Positions 1,707 to 61,234 of a stretch of DNA of 62,889 nucleotides are shown piece by piece. The translations under genes and the position numbers were made by a program. The DNA lies in NCBI GenBank assembly GCA_020721965.1, contig DYLS01000009.1:1-62889 (forward strand), read 5' to 3'. This stretch comes from Blastopirellula marina (lineage in GTDB: Bacteria; Planctomycetota; Planctomycetia; Pirellulales; Thermoguttaceae). A model generated the notes under the pieces. That model was given only the letters and a program-made list of their open reading frames with translations. It was not told the origin of the DNA and did not search any database. Position 1 is the first letter of the stretch, and every line of letters begins with the position of its first letter.

Positions 1707-2654
1707 CGACGCATCCCACCTGCGTGCTCACCCTTTGGTCCTTGCTTTTCGACGAGCACGTCATTCGAAGACCGAAAAATCCAGCACCAATCGCAACTGC
1801 GGCTGGTGAGTTCCTAATGCCGACCCGGCCACCGGGGGGCATAGTGGGGCTGATCATCAGTAATCATAACTGGAGTTTTGCAACTTGAGGCCACGAGGTT
1901 CGCTCTCCCCTGGGAGATCGTCGGGCGAAGGCGATTTCCCAGGAATGCAGTTTTCCTTATTTCTCTGCATTTCTCAGCATCCCCATTTTTCGTCCTCTTT
2001 CAGAGGGGAGCGATCTGTTTGCAAAAGTCCACTCATAAGCACAATTTGCGAGAGTTTCTGCGCCAAACGATATCCCATGTTCCGAGATCGAGGGCATGTG
2101 GGTCCACGAGACCGGATAGTTTTTGCCACAACCTCTGTAATTTGACTCCGGTAGCCCCCTATCTTGTCGGTTATCGAAACCCGGCCATCCGGTGACGGCT
2201 CGAAATCCCGCTATTCAAGAGTGGCGACACAGTTGGCGGCAAATGCCGAACAAACCCACCCTGGAATCCCCCCGGGAGGAGGATCTTGATCATCTCCGTA
2301 ACATCTTGTCCTTAACGATGGCGCGGCTCGCTAATCGATTTGTTGGCATCTCGTGTCTACTCCAACGCTGCCTTCAACCGGCCGGCGTCAAACTGGGCAA
2401 CTTCAGATACTGAAAGCCAGCAAGGAAACTGGCGCCCTTAAATAATCTACGCAAGATATCCCCCCGTCCCCCTGACAAATACGTTGAAACTCGGCGAGAA
2501 GAACGGCATTTTCGCTACGGTTTGCCATTCTTTCTCAATTCTCACGAGCGGTTTGTCCGATATTAACGTCGCAACCCCTTATTGACGGTTCTAGGGAGAC
2601 GGCACGAAAAGGCGTCACACCGGACACTTGCGCACATTGAGGTGGACAAGAACC
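1707..2654. other. intergenic region with one MITE-like element
   Basis: About 950 bp without a supportable gene. The only structure seen is the family-1 element at 1870-2032. Short open frames at 2192-2413 and elsewhere have no recognisable product or ribosome-binding site. The promoter of the barrel-protein gene must lie in the right-hand part, but no clear -35/-10 pair was found. Confidence 0.5.
1870..2032 (+). mobile_element. family-1 MITE-like element, copy A
   Basis: A 163-bp element bounded by CTGGAGTTTTGCAA and TTGCAAAAGTCCAC, in forward orientation. It is flanked by a perfect 6-bp direct repeat TCATAA (1864-1869 and 2033-2038). The interior contains the hairpin TCTCCC-CT-GGGAGA and CCTCTTTCAGAGG, shared with the other copies. 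It has no coding capacity. Confidence 0.85.
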
Positions 2655-7472: not shown

Positions 7473-8675
7473 TTAGTCGTTCAATTCCAGAATCCGGGCG
7501 ACTTCCTGGGCGTCTTTGTCACCCCGGCCTGATAAACAGACCACGATGATTTCTTCCGCGGATCGCTGAGAAGCCAGCTCCATCGCCTTGGACACGGCGT
7601 GCGAGCTTTCCAAGGCTGGCAGGATACCCTCCAATCGAGCCACCGATTGAAAGGCATCCAAGGCCTGGCGGTCGCTGACATTGGTATAGCTGACACGGCC
7701 GGTTTCCTTCCACAAGCTGTGTTCCGGCCCCACGCCGGGGTAATCCAAGCCCGCGGAAACGGAGTGGACATCGGCGGTCTGCCCATCCTCGTCTTGAAGC
7801 ACATACGAGTAAGTACCATGCAAGATGCCTGGCTGGCCAAAGGATAGAGTCGATGCGTGATCCCCGATGCGGGGTGAGCGTCCCCCGGCTTCGACTCCTA
7901 CCAGTTTGACCGACTCGTCCTCGATGAAGGGATAAAACATCCCCGCCGCATTGCTCCCCCCACCCACACACGCCACGATCAGATCGGGTAAACGTTGAAA
8001 CAGTTCCAAGCACTGCTGTCGCGTTTCCTTGCCTATGACCGATTGAAAGTCGCGAACGATCCGTGGGAAGGGATGCGGCCCTGTGACGGAACCCAGGCAG
8101 TAATGGCTGAATTCCACCGAACTCATCCAGTCCCGCATCGCTTCATTGATGGCATCGCGCAGCGTTTTGGACCCGCTCGCCACCGGCACCACCTGGGCCC
8201 CCAAAAGCCGCATGTTCAAGACATTGGGTCGCTGCCGCCGCATGTCCTCCTCGCCCATGTACACGACGCATTCCAAGCCGAATCGCGCGCAGGCGGTGGC
8301 CGTCGCCACTCCGTGCTGGCCGGCACCCGTTTCGGCGATCACGCGCCGCTTGCCCATGCGGACGGTCAGCAGGGCTTGTCCCAACGAGTTGTTGATCTTG
8401 TGAGCGCCGGTGTGGTTCAAGTCTTCGCGTTTGAAGAAGAGTTTGGCTCCCCCGCAAAATGCGGTCAAACGCTCGGCGAAATACAAGGGAGAAGGCCTGC
8501 CGACGTAATCTCGATACAAGGCACTCAGAGTCACGGCAAACTCTGGATCGGCCAGCGCACTAGCGTACTGGCAATCCAGCTCGTCCAAAGCTCGGACGAG
8601 TGTCTCCGGGACATATCTCCCACCAAACCTCCCAAACCTCCCAGACGCATCAGGGTAACTTGCAAGCGTGGCCAT
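7473..8675 (-). CDS. trpB: tryptophan synthase beta subunit
   Basis: A 400-residue PLP enzyme condensing indole with serine to form tryptophan, in an alpha2-beta2 complex with TrpA. The PLP-binding Lys93 sits in [11 protein letters not shown]. The phosphate loop [10 protein letters not shown] and the [12 protein letters not shown] indole-channel segment are present. Length is normal for TrpB1. It is the first gene of trpBA; its upstream region holds a degenerate pyrimidine-rich repeat and a dispersed repeat rather than an obvious leader peptide or attenuator. The direct repeat GRFGRFGG near the N-terminus is coding. Confidence 0.95.
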
Positions 8676-8770
8676 CCGAATAAACCTGCAATAAGTAAGA
8701 GGTCTCGATAAATTTTAATGTCATCCGATCGTTCGTGCGGACTGTCAGTCGGCCTAACACCAAAGCGCGG

Positions 8771-8873
8771 GATTGTTTGCTTGGCTCGACATCTGGTGGC
8801 GTTTGAGCATATCGCCTCGCAAGATACGCTGAGCACATCATGCCATCAGGCGGACTTTGCGCGGTAGAACCAG
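8771..8873. repeat. third dispersed repeat, copy 1
   Basis: About 100 bp that align with 10318-10417 in the same orientation. The best conserved part is GCCATCAGGCGGACTTTGCG here against TCCATCAGGCGAACTTTGCG there. The left half is diverged and has small gaps. Neither terminal inverted repeats nor a target duplication could be defined. Confidence 0.55.
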
Positions 8874-8961
8874 ATCATTTCGCCGTTCCAACGACCGAAC
8901 CAACCGGCGCCACACGCCTGAAGTGCCCATTCGCACCAGTTTCCAGATTTCAGTGCTTCCT

Positions 8962-9064
8962 CCGATTCCTACGACGTCTACGATTTCCGCAATGTCTGCG
9001 ATTCCTGTGATTCCTACGGCGCGATTCCTACACCACGATTGCTGCATCACGATTTCTGCGTCAC
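8962..9064. repeat. degenerate repeat of CGATTYCTRC-like units
   Basis: Roughly nine irregularly spaced copies of CGATTCCTAC, CGATTTCCGC, TGATTCCTAC, CGATTGCTGC and CGATTTCTGC (spacing about 9-18 nt). It lies between the divergent trpB and SHOCT-like genes. Confidence 0.6.
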
Positions 9065-9328
9065 GGCGCGGCCTTATCGCTTATCGTAAAGCGAACTCGC
9101 GATTTAGGCAAATCCAGGTAGACCGAGCCTTCGCAAAGGGTGATAATATGGATTGATGGTAGCGGTTTTACGAACCGCATGCAGTTGATGGGCCGTAGGC
9201 TCGTGGTTCAGGCGGTCCGATACCGTCTGATGAACAAATCCGCGCCGGCCGTGGCGAGGACGTCGCCGCAGGAGCACCGGTGGGATGATCCCGGTGTCGG
9301 CGTTCGGGTTACGCGCAACCTGAAGTTT

Positions 9329-9480
9329 GTAACCGGTCACGGAACATTCGGGGTGTCACAGGCGTCAACTACGGCATCTTGTGGTTCCTTTGAGCCATCG
9401 GCGGCTACGAGCTGAGCGTTTTTGCCAAACGGCCCGAAAAACTCGGCCTTTTCAGCATGATCCCCCCGGTGAGCGGTAAC
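9329..9480 (+). mobile_element. family-2 MITE-like element, copy 1
   Basis: A 152-bp element with ends GTAACCGGTCACGG and CCGGTGAGCGGTAAC, which pair as imperfect inverted repeats. The interior shares GCATCTTGTGG and CCATCGGCGGCTACGA with the other copies. The left flank TGAAGTTT (9321-9328) matches TAAAGTTT at the right, once the family-1 insertion at 9487 is removed (7 of 8 bases), which indicates an 8-bp target duplication. Confidence 0.75.
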
Positions 9481-9486
9481 TAAAGT

Positions 9487-9651
9487 CTGGACTTTTGCAA
9501 ACTGTTTGCTTTCCATCTGAGAGAGGGCGACAAACTGAAGCTGTGGGTAATTCAGATAAACGAGGAAGGCCGTTTTTGCAGCAAACAGTCCTCCCTCTTC
9601 AACCTCCGGAGTGTAGAGCGGAGCTTGTGAACCCAATTTGCAAAAGTCCAG
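9487..9651 (-). mobile_element. family-1 MITE-like element, copy B
   Basis: 165 bp with perfect 14-bp ends CTGGACTTTTGCAA and TTGCAAAAGTCCAG, in reverse orientation. Flanked by a perfect 6-bp duplication TAAAGT (9481-9486 and 9652-9657). It inserted directly at the right border of the family-2 element ending at 9480. Confidence 0.9.
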
Positions 9652-9720
9652 TAAAGTTTGAAAAGCGATTCAAGGCGGTCTTCGCCGGACATTCCTAAGC
9701 GTCAAGCCAAGTTGCCACAA

Positions 9721-10005
9721 ATGCAAATTTTTCCCCACATCGGATGGTTGCTGTTGTGGTCGATCGTAGGGTTTGTCATGGCCGCTATCGCGGTTTGGCT
9801 GATTCGGCGTGTTCGCCACGACGTCCTGTCGCGGAGCGATTCCGCAATCGAAACCGAACAGATGTTGCGTCAATTCGAAGCGTTGAAGGCCGAAGGGAAA
9901 CTCGAGGACAGGGAGTACCGAGCCATCCGCGAACGACTACGGAATGCGAAAACGTCGGAAGCGGTCCAATCGGGCAAGACGAGTGGCCGGCGTCCTCGCT
10001 CCTGA
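9721..10005 (+). CDS. small membrane protein with SHOCT-like C-terminus
   Basis: A 94-residue protein. The ATG at 9721 was chosen because the longer frame (from 9658) starts just after a transposable element and lacks similarity. Residues about 7-28 form one membrane helix (WLLLWSIVGFVMAAIAVWLI). The C-terminal part EQMLRQFEALKAEGKLEDREYRAIRERL is a SHOCT-like short helical module, thought to mediate oligomerisation. The upstream Shine-Dalgarno is weak. Function is unknown. It is a common small-protein type in Planctomycetes. Confidence 0.6.
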   Translation: MQIFPHIGWLLLWSIVGFVMAAIAVWLIRRVRHDVLSRSDSAIETEQMLRQFEALKAEGKLEDREYRAIRERLRNAKTSEAVQSGKTSGRRPRS

Positions 10006-10539
10006 GACCCCCCTAGAGGACCGTCTCAACCCATCCGCAAGGCATAACGGAATAAACTGCCTGAAACTCTTGAACGACCAAGACATAGGATCGCGAGGTT
10101 AGGTACGAGGTAGACTTTAACGTACGGACGTGTCTTGCTGGTTATGCGGTTGGTTTGCCGAAATGGGCATTGTCCGCAGCCAACCAAATCAGCCGTCCGA
10201 TGACGTCTTTTAGCCCTGGAATTGAACGCTGCTGGGCGTTGGGGCGGAGGAGGCCGCGACGGCGACCATTGGAGCTGTACACTGGAGATCGCCCTAATAT
10301 CAAAATACCATGGCGCTGAGTCGTTTGCGTGGCTCAACACCTTGTTGTGGGGCATAGCCCTCGCAACTTAAGCCGGGTGCATCATTCCATCAGGCGAACT
10401 TTGCGCCGTAGTGCTAGCAGCCCTGGCGAGCACTGCCGATTTCCGGAGTGTTCGTAGTTAGCCAGCCAGCCGCGGAATCCCAAGGTCCCAGATTTAACAC
10501 TGAACACGACCTCCCGAAAGACTTCTAGGACGCTCGATC
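10006..10539. other. intergenic region upstream of clpX
   Basis: About 530 bp. The only structure is the second copy of the diverged ~100-bp repeat at 10318-10417. No gene, clear promoter or RNA gene was recognised. Confidence 0.5.
10318..10417. repeat. third dispersed repeat, copy 2
   Basis: Counterpart of 8771-8873, about 1.5 kb away and in the same orientation. Shared blocks include TGGCTC, CCTCGCAA and ATCAGGCG-ACTTTGCGC. It ends about 120 bp before the clpX start codon. Confidence 0.55.
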
Positions 10540-11844
10540 ATGCCGACAGGACGGGATTTTACTTCCGGACGCCGTGGGACCGGTAGCACGAAGAAGAACG
10601 CTTTTTGTTCGTTTTGTCGAAAAAGCTACCGCGACGTCGGACCGCTCGTCGAGGGTCCCGGCGACGTCTACATTTGCGGCGAATGCATCGATCTTTGCCA
10701 GTCCATTTTGGATCAAGAGCGCAAGCGTCGCGGGACGACCAGGCCGCTTTTTGGCCGAGTGCCCTCCCCCCGAGAAATTGTCGAGAAGTTCAACGAATTC
10801 GTCGTCGGTCAAGAGGAAGCCAAGAAAACGCTTGCCGTAGCGGTGTACACTCATTACCGCCGCCTCATGCACCACGGTACCTCGGATGTGATGATCGAGA
10901 AATCGAACATCCTCTTGATCGGGCCGACGGGGTCGGGTAAGACGCTTTTGGCCCAGACCCTCGCCCGACTGCTCGACGTCCCCTTCGCTATCGGCGACGC
11001 CACGACCCTCACCGAAGCCGGTTATGTGGGCGAAGACGTGGAAAACCTGCTGCTCAAGCTCTTGCACGCCGCCGATTTCGACCTCGAGTCCGCCCAGCGC
11101 GGCATCATCTACATCGATGAAATCGACAAAATCCGAAAGACGGGCCATAACGTTTCCATCACCCGCGATGTCTCGGGGGAAGGCGTTCAGCAGGCGCTGC
11201 TGAAGATGCTGGAGGGCACCGTATCCAATGTCCCGCCCCAAGGCGGCCGGAAGCATCCGGAACAGCAGTACATTCAGGTCGATACGTCCAATATTCTCTT
11301 CATCTGTGGCGGAACCTTCGTCGGATTGGAGGACATTATCGCACGGCGATTGGGGAAGCGGGCGATCGGCTTCAGTTCGACGATGTCTGCGTCCCAGAAC
11401 AGCGATTCTCCCAGCGAAGAGGAACGAAGCCGCTTCCTGATGGCGCACGTAACCAGCGAGGATCTCGTCGAATTCGGACTGATTCCCGAGCTGATCGGGC
11501 GACTTCCCGTCGTCAGCACATTGCAACCGCTCAACATAGATGCCCTCGTTCGCGTCCTTTCGGAACCGAAGAATGCTCTGGTCAAGCAATACCAGGAGCT
11601 GTTCGCTATGGAGAACGCCGAGTTGGAATTCACCGATGCCGCGCTCAAGCTGATTGCCCGAAAAGCGTACGATCGCGGCACGGGGGCGAGGGGCCTGCGA
11701 GCCATCGTCGAAGGGATCATGCTCGACGCGATTTACAATCTTCCGGATCAGCCCCCGGGGCTACGCTACGTGGTGGATACGGATGTCGTCGAGGGGCGAG
11801 TGCCGCTCGTTGGCCAGCCGCCTGCTCAACAGAAGCGAGCGTAG
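10540..11844 (+). CDS. clpX: ATP-dependent Clp protease ATP-binding subunit ClpX
   Basis: A 434-residue AAA+ unfoldase that feeds substrates to ClpP. The N-terminal zinc-binding domain has C23, C26, C46 and C49 (CSFC and CGEC). Walker A GPTGSGKT is at 128-135, the GYVG pore loop at 161-164, Walker B YIDEID at 191-196 and the RKH loop near 237. The ClpP-docking tripeptide IGF is present at 276-278, so this is a ClpP-interacting ClpX rather than an HslU-like relative. The length is normal. There is no clpP or tig next to it, unlike the common tig-clpP-clpX order. Confidence 0.93.
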
Positions 11845-13192: not shown

Positions 13193-13358
13193 CTGGACTA
13201 TTGCAACTTGGGTTCACTAGATCCCGTCTTCCCCTCAGGAGATGGTGGGGCGAAGGCAGTTTCCCACGCAAACAGATTTCCTTATTTTCCTAAATTGTCC
13301 AACGCTCGAGCTTGTCGTGTTCTCTTAGAGGGGGAGCGAGCCATTTGCAAAAGTCCAG
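13193..13358 (+). mobile_element. family-1 MITE-like element, copy C
   Basis: 166 bp, ends CTGGACTATTGCAA and TTGCAAAAGTCCAG, in forward orientation. Flanked by a perfect 6-bp duplication TCCTGA (13187-13192 and 13359-13364). Confidence 0.9.
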
Positions 13359-20548: not shown

Positions 20549-20713
20549 TTGGACTTTTGCAAATTGGGTTCACAAACTCCGCTCTCAGCTCGCGGGATTG
20601 AAGAAGGACGGTAATTTACTGCAAAAACGCCCTTCCTTGTTGTTCTGAACTACCCAGAGTTCCTGTTTGTCACGCTCTCTCAGAGGGAGAGCGCACAGGT
20701 TTCAAAAGTCCAG
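20549..20713 (+). mobile_element. family-1 MITE-like element, copy D
   Basis: 165 bp, ends TTGGACTTTTGCAA and TTTCAAAAGTCCAG, in forward orientation. Flanked by a perfect 6-bp duplication TTAAAA (20543-20548 and 20714-20719). It sits directly behind tRNA-Ser, so it may be co-transcribed and removed by 3' processing. Confidence 0.9.
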
Positions 20714-23779: not shown

Positions 23780-23944
23780 CTAGACTATTGCAAACTGCTT
23801 CATCCCCCTCTGAGAGATGGCTAGAAACTGGAGTTCTGGGCAATTCAAAGGAACAAGGAAAGTTATTTTATTGGGAAATAGCCTTCGCTGTGCCATCTCC
23901 CCTGGGAAGGGGCGAGCTTGTAACCCCAAATTGCAAAAGTCCAG
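23780..23944 (-). mobile_element. family-1 MITE-like element, copy E
   Basis: 165 bp, ends CTAGACTATTGCAA and TTGCAAAAGTCCAG, in reverse orientation. Flanks TACTGA (23774-23779) and TACTAA (23945-23950) match at 5 of 6 bases. It lies between the convergent glycosidase and WbsX-like genes. Confidence 0.85.
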
Positions 23945-32822: not shown

Positions 32823-32988
32823 CTGTCCTTTTACAAACTGCCCGCTCCTCCCTCTGAGAGAGGGCGACAAACTCGACAGTTGGGCCATTCAGGCAAACAA
32901 CAAAAGCCCTTTTTCCAATAAAACGACTTGATCCTCCCATTGCCCGAAAGGAGATGGGAGCTTGCGATCCTAATTCGCAAAAGTCCAG
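32823..32988 (-). mobile_element. family-1 MITE-like element, copy F
   Basis: 166 bp, ends CTGTCCTTTTACAA and TCGCAAAAGTCCAG, in reverse orientation. Flanks TAGAAT (32817-32822) and TAAAAT (32989-32994) match at 5 of 6 bases. The left flank contains the TAG stop codon of mqnE. Confidence 0.85.
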
Positions 32989-32999
32989 TAAAATCTCGG

Positions 33000-33153
33000 A
33001 AAACCGTTCACGCTTGGAAGAATATGGAAAATGCGGTGTCCTTACGAGCCGCGTCGAAAAGACACCCCGCTCGCAGCCGCCGATTGCTCACGGGTACCCC
33101 AAGATATTGTGAGCAACAGGGCGCGACACCGCAAATGTTCCGTGATCGGTTAC
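33000..33153 (-). mobile_element. family-2 MITE-like element, copy 2
   Basis: 154 bp, in reverse orientation relative to the copy at 9329. Ends are AAAACCGTTCACG and CGTGATCGGTTAC. On the minus strand it shares ACGGAACATT, GCAATCGGCGGCT and ATATCTTGGGG with the other copies. The flanks AATCTCGG and CATCTCCA share the core ATCTC, consistent with a decayed 8-bp duplication. Confidence 0.7.
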
Positions 33154-35935: not shown

Positions 35936-36404
35936 TCGCGTGCTCGCACAGTCCCTTCGGCAACTCCAACTTTGCAACCCGCCGCACTCGAAATCTCGAA
36001 TCCTGGCCTCCAGCCATAACTTACATCATCAACGGCAGCTCGATCGACGAGTCACGCACGACTCTCCGAATCATGGTTACCGTGCGTGACGGCCATGGGA
36101 CCACCGCTTAGTAACCGTTCACGGGGCATTGAGGGCGTCGCGCCGGGGCGACCCCAACATCTTGTGGCTTGCTTCAGCAATCGGCGGCTACGATCAGTGC
36201 GTTTTTCCCTCGATGCCCGTGAAACCACCGAGTTTGCCACATTGTTTGACCCGTGAATGGTTACACCGCTCATCACCCCAGGCTGTTCACAAATTCCGCA
36301 ATTCCGCGGCCCCGGTTTTCCAATGCCAACTCAAGCCGCTCCGACAGGAGTCCGCGGGCAATCCTGCTCGGCACACGGCACGAAATCAGCGGGTGAGGTT
36401 GGAG
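35936..36404. other. intergenic region with a family-2 element
   Basis: About 470 bp between rnhA (start) and the 3' end of the histidine kinase gene. The family-2 element at 36111-36264 is the only structure recognised. Confidence 0.6.
36111..36264 (+). mobile_element. family-2 MITE-like element, copy 3
   Basis: 154 bp, the best-preserved copy. Its ends GTAACCGTTCACGG and CCGTGAATGGTTAC form a 14-bp inverted repeat with one mismatch. Flanks ACCGCTTA (36103-36110) and ACCGCTCA (36265-36272) match at 7 of 8 bases, defining an 8-bp target duplication. It has no coding capacity. Confidence 0.85.
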
Positions 36405-41957: not shown

Positions 41958-42122
41958 CTGGACTTTTGCAAACTGCTCGATTTCCTTCCGAGAGAAGGCG
42001 ACCGACTGGTGTGTTGGGCAATTCAGGGAAACAAGGAAAACCGTATCGCTAGAAAACTGCCTTCGCCCCACCATGTCATAAGGAAAGACGGGAGCCAGTG
42101 AACCCAAGTTGCAAAAGTCCAG
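41958..42122 (-). mobile_element. family-1 MITE-like element, copy G
   Basis: 165 bp with perfect ends CTGGACTTTTGCAA and TTGCAAAAGTCCAG, in reverse orientation. Flanks TTAGCT (41951-41956, with one extra A before the element) and TTCGCT (42123-42128) match at 5 of 6 bases. Confidence 0.85.
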
Positions 42123-42548: not shown

Positions 42549-42713
42549 CTGGACCTCTGCAAACTGTTCGCTCTCCGTCTGGGAGATAGCGTAGAATAGG
42601 GCAAATAAGAGATTTAGAAAAACTACACAATCTGTTTGCGAAGTACCGTGCCTTCACCTGCCACTTCCTTAAGGAGAGAGGTAAGCTTGTGATCGCAATT
42701 TGTAAAAATCCAT
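42549..42713 (-). mobile_element. family-1 MITE-like element, copy H (diverged)
   Basis: 165 bp, ends CTGGACCTCTGCAA and TTGTAAAAATCCAT, in reverse orientation. It is the most diverged copy, with a poor flank match (GTGGTG against CTGGTA, 4 of 6). It lies 168 bp upstream of the histidine kinase start. Confidence 0.75.
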
Positions 42714-53758: not shown

Positions 53759-53923
53759 CTGGACTTTTGCAAGTTGGGTTCACAAACTCCGCTCTCCCCT
53801 CGTGGGATTGAAGGAAGACGGTAGTTTAGTGCGAAAACGACCTTCCTGGTTTTTCTGAATTACCCAGAGCTTCAGTTTGCCGCCCTCTCTCAGAGGGGAG
53901 GCGAACAGTTTGCAAACGGCCAG
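53759..53923 (+). mobile_element. family-1 MITE-like element, copy I
   Basis: 165 bp, ends CTGGACTTTTGCAA and TTGCAAACGGCCAG, in forward orientation. Flanks TACTAG (53753-53758) and TGCTAG (53924-53929) match at 5 of 6 bases. Confidence 0.85.
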
Positions 53924-60684: not shown

Positions 60685-61234
60685 TCCTCTTCTTGTTGTA
60701 TTGTAGGCAGTTGCTACAAAGCGGCGAGACCCCGGAATGGGAACAACAGATTACATCCACGTACAGCAATGCACACCAGGCGATCGCCGCCATCAACCTA
60801 AAAACACACTAACCACAGCGGCCAAAGCCCCCCCATCCGTGGCAATTGATGAAACCGCGAGAGGGTGCCCCTAAGGAATAAAGCCGCCTTCTCCAGTAAC
60901 TACAGCCCAGTATCATAAAGTTTCCGAAAGAGGGCAACAAGGGGAGAAACCGGCTCGGGGATTGCAGCAATGCGTGGTATCCCCACCTCACGCGTCCCAT
61001 GGGCGTCAGCCGATTCGCCGGTTCACCGGTTCGAAATTGGCCTTGGAACTGGACTTTTGCAACTTAAGGTCACAAGCTCCCACCTTCCCCGGGGAGATGG
61101 TGGGGTGAATGCAGTTTCCCATGAAAACAAATTTCCTTGCTTTCTTGAATTGTCCAAGACTCCAGTCCGTAGCCCTCTTTCAGAGGGGGGATCGGGTACT
61201 TTGCAAAAGTCCAGTTAGAACGGGCTTGAACGCC
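60685..61234. other. intergenic region with one MITE-like element
   Basis: About 550 bp. The right part is the family-1 copy at 61049-61214. The part next to yajC should hold its promoter (a TACAAT lies 18 nt upstream of the start, minus strand, but without a good -35). Nothing else was recognised. Confidence 0.5.
61049..61214 (+). mobile_element. family-1 MITE-like element, copy J
   Basis: 166 bp with perfect ends CTGGACTTTTGCAA and TTGCAAAAGTCCAG, in forward orientation. Flanks TTGGAA (61043-61048) and TTAGAA (61215-61220) match at 5 of 6 bases. It starts 21 bp beyond the 3' end of the oxidoreductase gene. Confidence 0.9.

Follow-up and report, generated by a model that had tools for sequence, protein, structure and literature searches.

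Two insertion sequence families and one miniature element are the closest described counterparts of the elements considered here. Members of the IS66 family generate 8-bp repeats, according to passages of two sources (PMC3281130; PMC11946415), and their ends usually start GTAAGCG in the account excerpted from the second of these (PMC11946415). For the IS701 family, an extract of a further source gives 4–9 bp duplications at A+T-rich hot spots for ISGka1 and ISGka2 of Geobacillus kaustophilus, and duplications of 4 or 5 bp for other members (PMC8024623). Among bacterial MITEs, MITECca01 of Cardinium cOegib is described, in the excerpted text of its report, as an IS982-derived element of about 240 bp present in 169 copies, mostly between genes and also within other mobile elements, and accompanied in its genome by parental copies that are intact (PMC9769881).

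Here we describe a site in Blastopirellula marina at which two MITEs of different families, F1 and F2, adjoin. The window, that is, the whole stretch of DNA that was analysed, is 62,889 nucleotides long and constitutes contig C160 of a 4.95-Mb assembly (genome G000; 380 contigs, 97% complete); wider counts come from a 785.7-kb sample of 13 contigs of this genome (785,733 bp, 59.6% G+C) that holds 45 F1 and 30 F2 hits. The site is very probably a nested insertion of F2 and then F1, an arrangement of an already known kind.

Structure of the junction

The features of the junction and the other element copies in the window are collected in Table 1. The first-pass annotation had proposed that an F2 copy is followed directly by TAAAGT, an F1 copy and TAAAGT again, that taking out F1 with one TAAAGT restores an 8-mer matching the left flank of F2 at 7 of 8 bases, and that the two elements had duplicated 6 bp (F1) and 8 bp (F2) of target. 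Direct reading and recomputation reproduced this layout exactly. The restored 8-mer, TAAAGTTT, differs from TGAAGTTT by a single base; among 200,000 random 8-mers drawn from the 785.7-kb sample, 0.0145% come as close. Both duplication lengths were confirmed on other copies in the genome, as detailed below. At the gathering threshold, Rfam matched two tRNAs in the whole window and nothing else.

Table 1 Features of the nested site, its flanking genes and further F1 and F2 copies in the window
Feature	Position	Strand	Remarks
F1	1870..2032	+	perfect TCATAA duplication
Left flanking gene, PLP-dependent enzyme (PF00291)	7473..8675	-	G003 orthologue 86% identical, same gap side
F2 left 8-bp target duplication copy, TGAAGTTT	9321..9328	no strand	direct reading, recomputation
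F2, 152 bp, IS66-type MITE	9329..9480	+	begins GTAACCGG, ends GCGGTAAC; decayed ends, 1 and 3 mismatches to family terminus
TAAAGT, between F2 and F1	9481..9486	no strand	first six bases of F2 right duplication, equal to F1 left 6-bp duplication
F1, 165 bp, MITE with IS701-type termini	9487..9651	+	begins CTGGACTTTTGCAAA, ends TTTGCAAAAGTCCAG; both 15-bp ends exact
TAAAGT	9652..9657	no strand	F1 right duplication copy
TT	9658..9659	no strand	final two bases of F2 right 8-bp duplication
Right flanking small gene, 94 aa	9721..10005	+	PF14316 DUF4381 below cut-off; G003 orthologue 51% identical
clpX-like gene (PF06689, PF07724)	10540..11844	+	91% identical in G003
F1	13193..13358	-	perfect TCCTGA duplication
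F1	20549..20713	-	perfect TTAAAA duplication
F1	23780..23944	+	
F1	32823..32988	+	near an F2; duplication TAGAAT/TAAAAT, 1 mismatch
F2	33000..33153	-	11 bp from F1 32823..32988; flanks AATCTCGG/CATCTCCA, 3 mismatches at 8 bp
F2, third of window	36111..36264	+	flanks ACCGCTTA/ACCGCTCA, 1 mismatch
F1	41958..42122	+	
F1	42549..42713	+	
F1	53759..53923	-	
F1	61049..61214	-	

The F1 and F2 families and their transposase relatives

F1 has the properties of a MITE in its size, its missing transposase gene, its terminal inverted repeats and its 6-bp duplication of constant length. The element measures 163–168 bp over 50 copies, below 300 bp throughout, and makes up about 0.9% of the 785.7 kb sampled; its terminus, sought with at most one mismatch, occurs 248 times in the genome, and a reversed-pattern control gave 0 hits. 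The copies examined were the best 40 BLAST matches per family together with others met in the sequence stretches, and 16 F1 and 18 F2 hits that lacked an end-to-end alignment were excluded from the duplication test. Perfect 6-bp duplications flank 14 of the 50 F1 copies (13 of 49 without the copy at 9487-9651); at other lengths there were none of 4, 5, 8, 9 or 10 bp, one of 7 bp, and three at 2 and 3 bp. When end-to-end copies from the 13 contigs were considered, the 9487-9651 copy included, 19 of 29 matched at 6 bp with at most one mismatch, against a mean of 1.6 and a maximum of 8 in 2000 permutations. The 14 perfect duplications, again counting the one at 9487-9651, are 82% A+T and, with both strands pooled, TTRYAA-like. 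As this target is A+T-rich in DNA of 59.6% G+C, the A+T-rich duplication of an F2 is a natural landing site for F1.

A sibling of the junction copy lies at 16939-17103 of contig C332, equal to it at 164 of 165 bases and flanked by copies of TTATTA, with no F2 at its edge. The sibling shows recent movement of that F1 subfamily; it gives no date for the copy at 9487-9651, from which it may itself descend. A conserved RNA fold was not found among 43 F1 copies (consensus −1.6 kcal/mol, 5 pairs, 2 of them changed on both sides), and F1 is accordingly not supported as a structured RNA element. At two further loci (L228:834-855 and L086:1946-1967), F1 termini overlap head to head in 22 bp in all, and look like an element shrunk to its ends or like two fused ends.

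F2 is likewise a MITE by its shortness, missing gene, inverted ends and constant 8-bp duplication. The consensus is 154 bp long with the terminus GTAACCGTTCACGG, which was found 319 times in the genome with at most one mismatch, compared with 23 control hits, and the family accounts for about 0.55% of the 785.7 kb. In 12 end-to-end copies the mean flank identity is 0.73 at 8 bp and 0.18–0.31 at the remaining lengths of 4–10 bp; just 3 of the 12 have at most one mismatch at 8 bp, a count that the largest of 2000 permutations equalled. In a wider set of 53 terminus pairs (49 distinct right ends, with alternative and chance pairings included), seven are perfect at 8 bp and none at 9 or 10 bp. The F2 fold over 22 copies has 21 predicted pairs, 8 of which are the inverted ends themselves; nine are changed on both sides in some copy, and 90.7% of cells pair. 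The covariation score was reached by 0 of 500 shuffles, a test that relatedness can inflate, and by none of 6 slid versions. The compensatory changes in these copies suggest that F2 may keep an internal stem at alignment columns 21-66.

A link between F1 and the IS701 family comes from other genomes, in which the F1 terminus (exact or with one mismatch) stands just upstream of IS701-family transposase frames, mostly truncated, at nine distinct loci (L386, L387, L388, L389, L390, L395, L403, L236 and L239; L387 and L242 are one contig, which reduces ten locus ids to nine loci). The terminus starts 78–97 bp upstream of the position that aligns with the first residue of the L390 protein. This protein was the sole transposase among 10 frames scanned of 49 candidate frames, and it exceeds the NCBIfam cut-off for IS701 (NF033540, 172.5 versus 150 bits, E 1.5e-50). 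Seven of the nine loci come from 20 chosen stretches of relatives, mostly solitary termini (7/20 with an IS701 frame), and L236 and L239 from matches listed in the scan of named genomes, where 3 of 149 termini among the listed matches had such a frame. None was found at 103 F1 termini of viral contigs, in which a protein scan with the IS701 transposase likewise gave no relative, at 57 termini in the G000 stretches examined, or at 38 in chosen stretches of genomes G003 and G008; 46 plasmid records contain relatives, all below 60% identity. None of the nine loci showed a complete IS701 element bounded on both sides by F1-type ends: the contig ends within about 220 bp at L403, L239 and L236 and within 1286 bp at L390, and at the remaining five no right end has fewer than 6 mismatches. 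At these five (L386, L387, L388, L389 and L395) the transposase match ends early, after residues 51–225 of 370, as if mostly 5′ remnants survive.

The 6-bp duplication of F1 fits the range given for ISGka1 and ISGka2, but not the 4 or 5 bp given for other members, in the extract cited above (PMC8024623). F1 differs from IS701 elements in being gene-less and 165 bp long, with a duplication that is for the most part 6 bp long (a single one of the 50 copies is perfect at 7 bp). Another family was also considered. IS1634 was favoured at first as the parent for its 6-bp duplication (ISPfe2) and was dropped once the IS701 link was found; this length is not diagnostic, since the same table has 6 bp for an IS5 element. 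The corresponding search for a DDE_Tnp_1 (PF01609) element gave 8 matches in G000, G003 and G008, none of them bracketed by an F1-type pair. Seven frames near solitary F1 termini of G008 were also scanned; none belonged to a transposase family, and 4 of the 7 had no Pfam match.

For F2, the counterpart is a 1509-bp element on contig C13 of G003 whose ends, GTGGCCGTTCACGGC and GTAGCCGTTCACGGC, are like those of F2 at 12 and 13 of 14 positions and enclose a 498-aa IS66 transposase frame (NF033517, E 1.6e-78); this copy has no 8-bp duplication (5 of 8 bases mismatched). F2 shares with the IS66 family its 8-bp duplication, a start in GTAA and the nearly identical terminus of an IS66 element. It departs from the family in being gene-less and in starting GTAACCG rather than the GTAAGCG that the excerpt of PMC11946415 gives as usual. 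No PF03050 match to an IS66 transposase was found in G000, an assembly 97% complete, although a non-autonomous copy does not need one there. We infer that these F1 and F2 copies were mobilised by IS701-type and IS66-type transposases and not by other transposases that share these ends.

Order of insertion and alternative explanations

In the history that we propose, two unrelated MITEs would have entered, in succession, the gap that separates the PLP-enzyme gene from the small gene preceding clpX. An IS66-type transposase acting in trans would have inserted F2 at an 8-bp target (about TRAAGTTT), duplicating it; later, an IS701-type transposase would have inserted F1 at the A+T-rich TAAAGT formed by the first six bases of the F2 right duplication, duplicating these six bases in turn.

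Contacts of this kind recur. Over 44 F1 elements, with the split pair on contig C114 counted as one, F1 lies in an F2 or within 24 bp of one at four places in the 785.7 kb: on C111, at 9321-9659, at 32823-33153 and on C121. One may postulate that F1 actively targets F2 elements or their A+T-rich duplications, building nested intergenic islands; if so, such targeting would have produced the contacts at 9321-9659 and 32823-33153 as well as the nested C111 copy and the pair on C121. Four contacts do exceed the 0.32 expected under uniform placement (Poisson p 0.0004), but both families are largely intergenic, and a rough intergenic proxy based on longest open frames raises the expectation to 1.5 (p 0.06). 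Moreover, two of the four lie in the very window that prompted the question, and the A+T-rich target preference of F1 alone would favour the same places. We therefore consider active targeting unlikely and treat the contact as one between ordinary nested MITEs.

The first-pass annotation had also placed F2 before F1, and this order has held up as the better reading. The reverse order would have F1 inserted first at TAAAGT and F2 later at the left edge of F1, with the 8-bp target TAAAGTCT (TAAAGT plus the first two F1 bases). It, too, leaves both F1 duplications intact, and the F2 right duplication that it predicts differs from TGAAGTTT by two transitions only; this is nonetheless one mismatch more than with F2 first, and the likelihood ratio in favour of F2 first is about 28 to 6 at a per-site decay of 0.05–0.2. 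Decay was estimated at 0.185 from a selected set, 23 of 34 F2 copies (those having no more than 3 mismatches), with the 9329-9480 copy and rows exceeding 4 end mismatches left out. The junction itself thus separates the two orders by one base, and extra support comes from the decay of the ends and from C111. At the site, F1 has no mismatch in its ends or duplication, whereas F2 has one in its duplication in addition to those in its ends. Averaged over copies, duplications are equally decayed in both families (0.73 identity each), which accords with the reverse order and indicates that F2 is not generally older than F1. The other resolvable contact, C111:21179-21341, is an F1 nested in an F2 and flanked on either side by TTTTTA; once this F1 is removed, the remaining sequence matches the F2 consensus without a break. 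The converse arrangement, F2 within F1, does not occur among the 45 F1 and 30 F2 hits of the 785.7 kb. Insertion of F1 before F2 is accordingly quite improbable, and the combined evidence points to F2 as the earlier arrival at 9321-9659.

Two further explanations concern the pair as a whole. A short-read misjoin at near-identical F1 copies might be suspected in an assembly of 380 contigs, with so close a sibling on C332, but TAAAGT matches on both sides of F1, the 8-mers match around the pair, and the presence of the same genes on both sides in G003 speaks against a misjoined contig; such an artefact is very improbable. Joint arrival of F2 and F1 as one composite unit would account for the agreement of the outer 8-mers, but it turns the identity of the inner TAAAGT with the F1 right flank into a coincidence, the C332 sibling sits between its TTATTA copies with no F2 beside it, and exact F1 ends within 24 bp of CGGTWAC in G000 and G003 amount to the 9321-9659 site and two non-F2 sites, so that we give it almost no credence.

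The locus in relatives and the spread of F1

The order of the PLP-enzyme gene, the small gene and clpX around the gap is kept in G003, the only one of three congeners in which both flanking genes face each other across it. The G003 gap contains no F2 and one F1 (C180:2571-2736, TAGTAA on both sides), and it does not align with the window at the insertion point. A relative carrying F1 and lacking F2 at this site had been put forward in the first-pass annotation as evidence against the order; G003 is such a relative in form, but its F1 insertion is independent and leaves the order standing. This follows from the different duplication, TAGTAA, from the spacing between F1 and the next ATG (95 bases in G003, 69 in the window), and from the F1 subfamily, which is specific to G003: the C180 copy shares 90–96% identity with 17 other G003 copies and no more than 81% with any of 50 G000 copies, and identity between the 9487-9651 copy and the same 17 does not exceed 70%. 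The gap at 8676-9720 has thus taken independent F1 insertions in G000 and in G003.

In the other two congeners, G001 and G002, the small gene (36% identical in each, found with clpX) and clpX are kept, and the fetched stretches contain neither F1 nor F2. The PLP-enzyme gene of G002 is located elsewhere, which makes the gap a point of gene-order change as well. When 9652-10020 was searched as nucleotides against 60 genomes, G000 included, a single short match turned up in addition to the window. At the protein level, a 90-aa fragment of the small gene was compared with 61 family genomes, G001 not among them; only G000 was recovered, and the G002 and G003 orthologues were missed.

The distribution of F1 termini is patchy: G000 has 248, G003 178 and G008 276, whereas the congeners G001 and G002 have 1 and 2, respectively. 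The 17 G003 copies compared are 89–97% identical to one another and, judged by this sequence similarity, F1 in G003 is a recent burst. One copy in the window's genome, G000:C121:66757-66923 (L044:479-645), is 81% identical to the G003 C180 copy, the next of the 50 G000 copies being 71% identical, and by this resemblance it may belong to the G003 subfamily. Elsewhere in the Planctomycetota there are MITE-like pairs with the same 15-bp ends and other lengths (122, 125 and 261–262 bp), carried by L191 and L261 (Phycisphaerae Tobar13.5m-G39), L231 (Pirellulales SJ86) and L171, L201, L223 and L237 (Planctomycetaceae Ct408_bin98); the duplications of L191, L261 and L231 are perfect at 6 bp.

The titles and opening lines of abstracts that were searched contained no description of the F1 and F2 families or of their IS701 and IS66 links, and GGACTTTTGCAAA was absent there as letters. 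Like F1 and F2, MITECca01 is a high-copy bacterial MITE located mainly in intergenic DNA and also within other mobile elements, but its parental copies are reported from the same genome in the excerpt available (PMC9769881), whereas the partners of F1 and F2 were found in other genomes only. At 9321-9659, two transposition events can be read in sequence, a small but legible record, and two abundant MITE families of Planctomycetota become tied to ends of the IS701 and IS66 types. Because its F1 burst is patchy, this group of genomes could serve as a system for studying how MITEs multiply once their partner transposase has become scarce or been lost.
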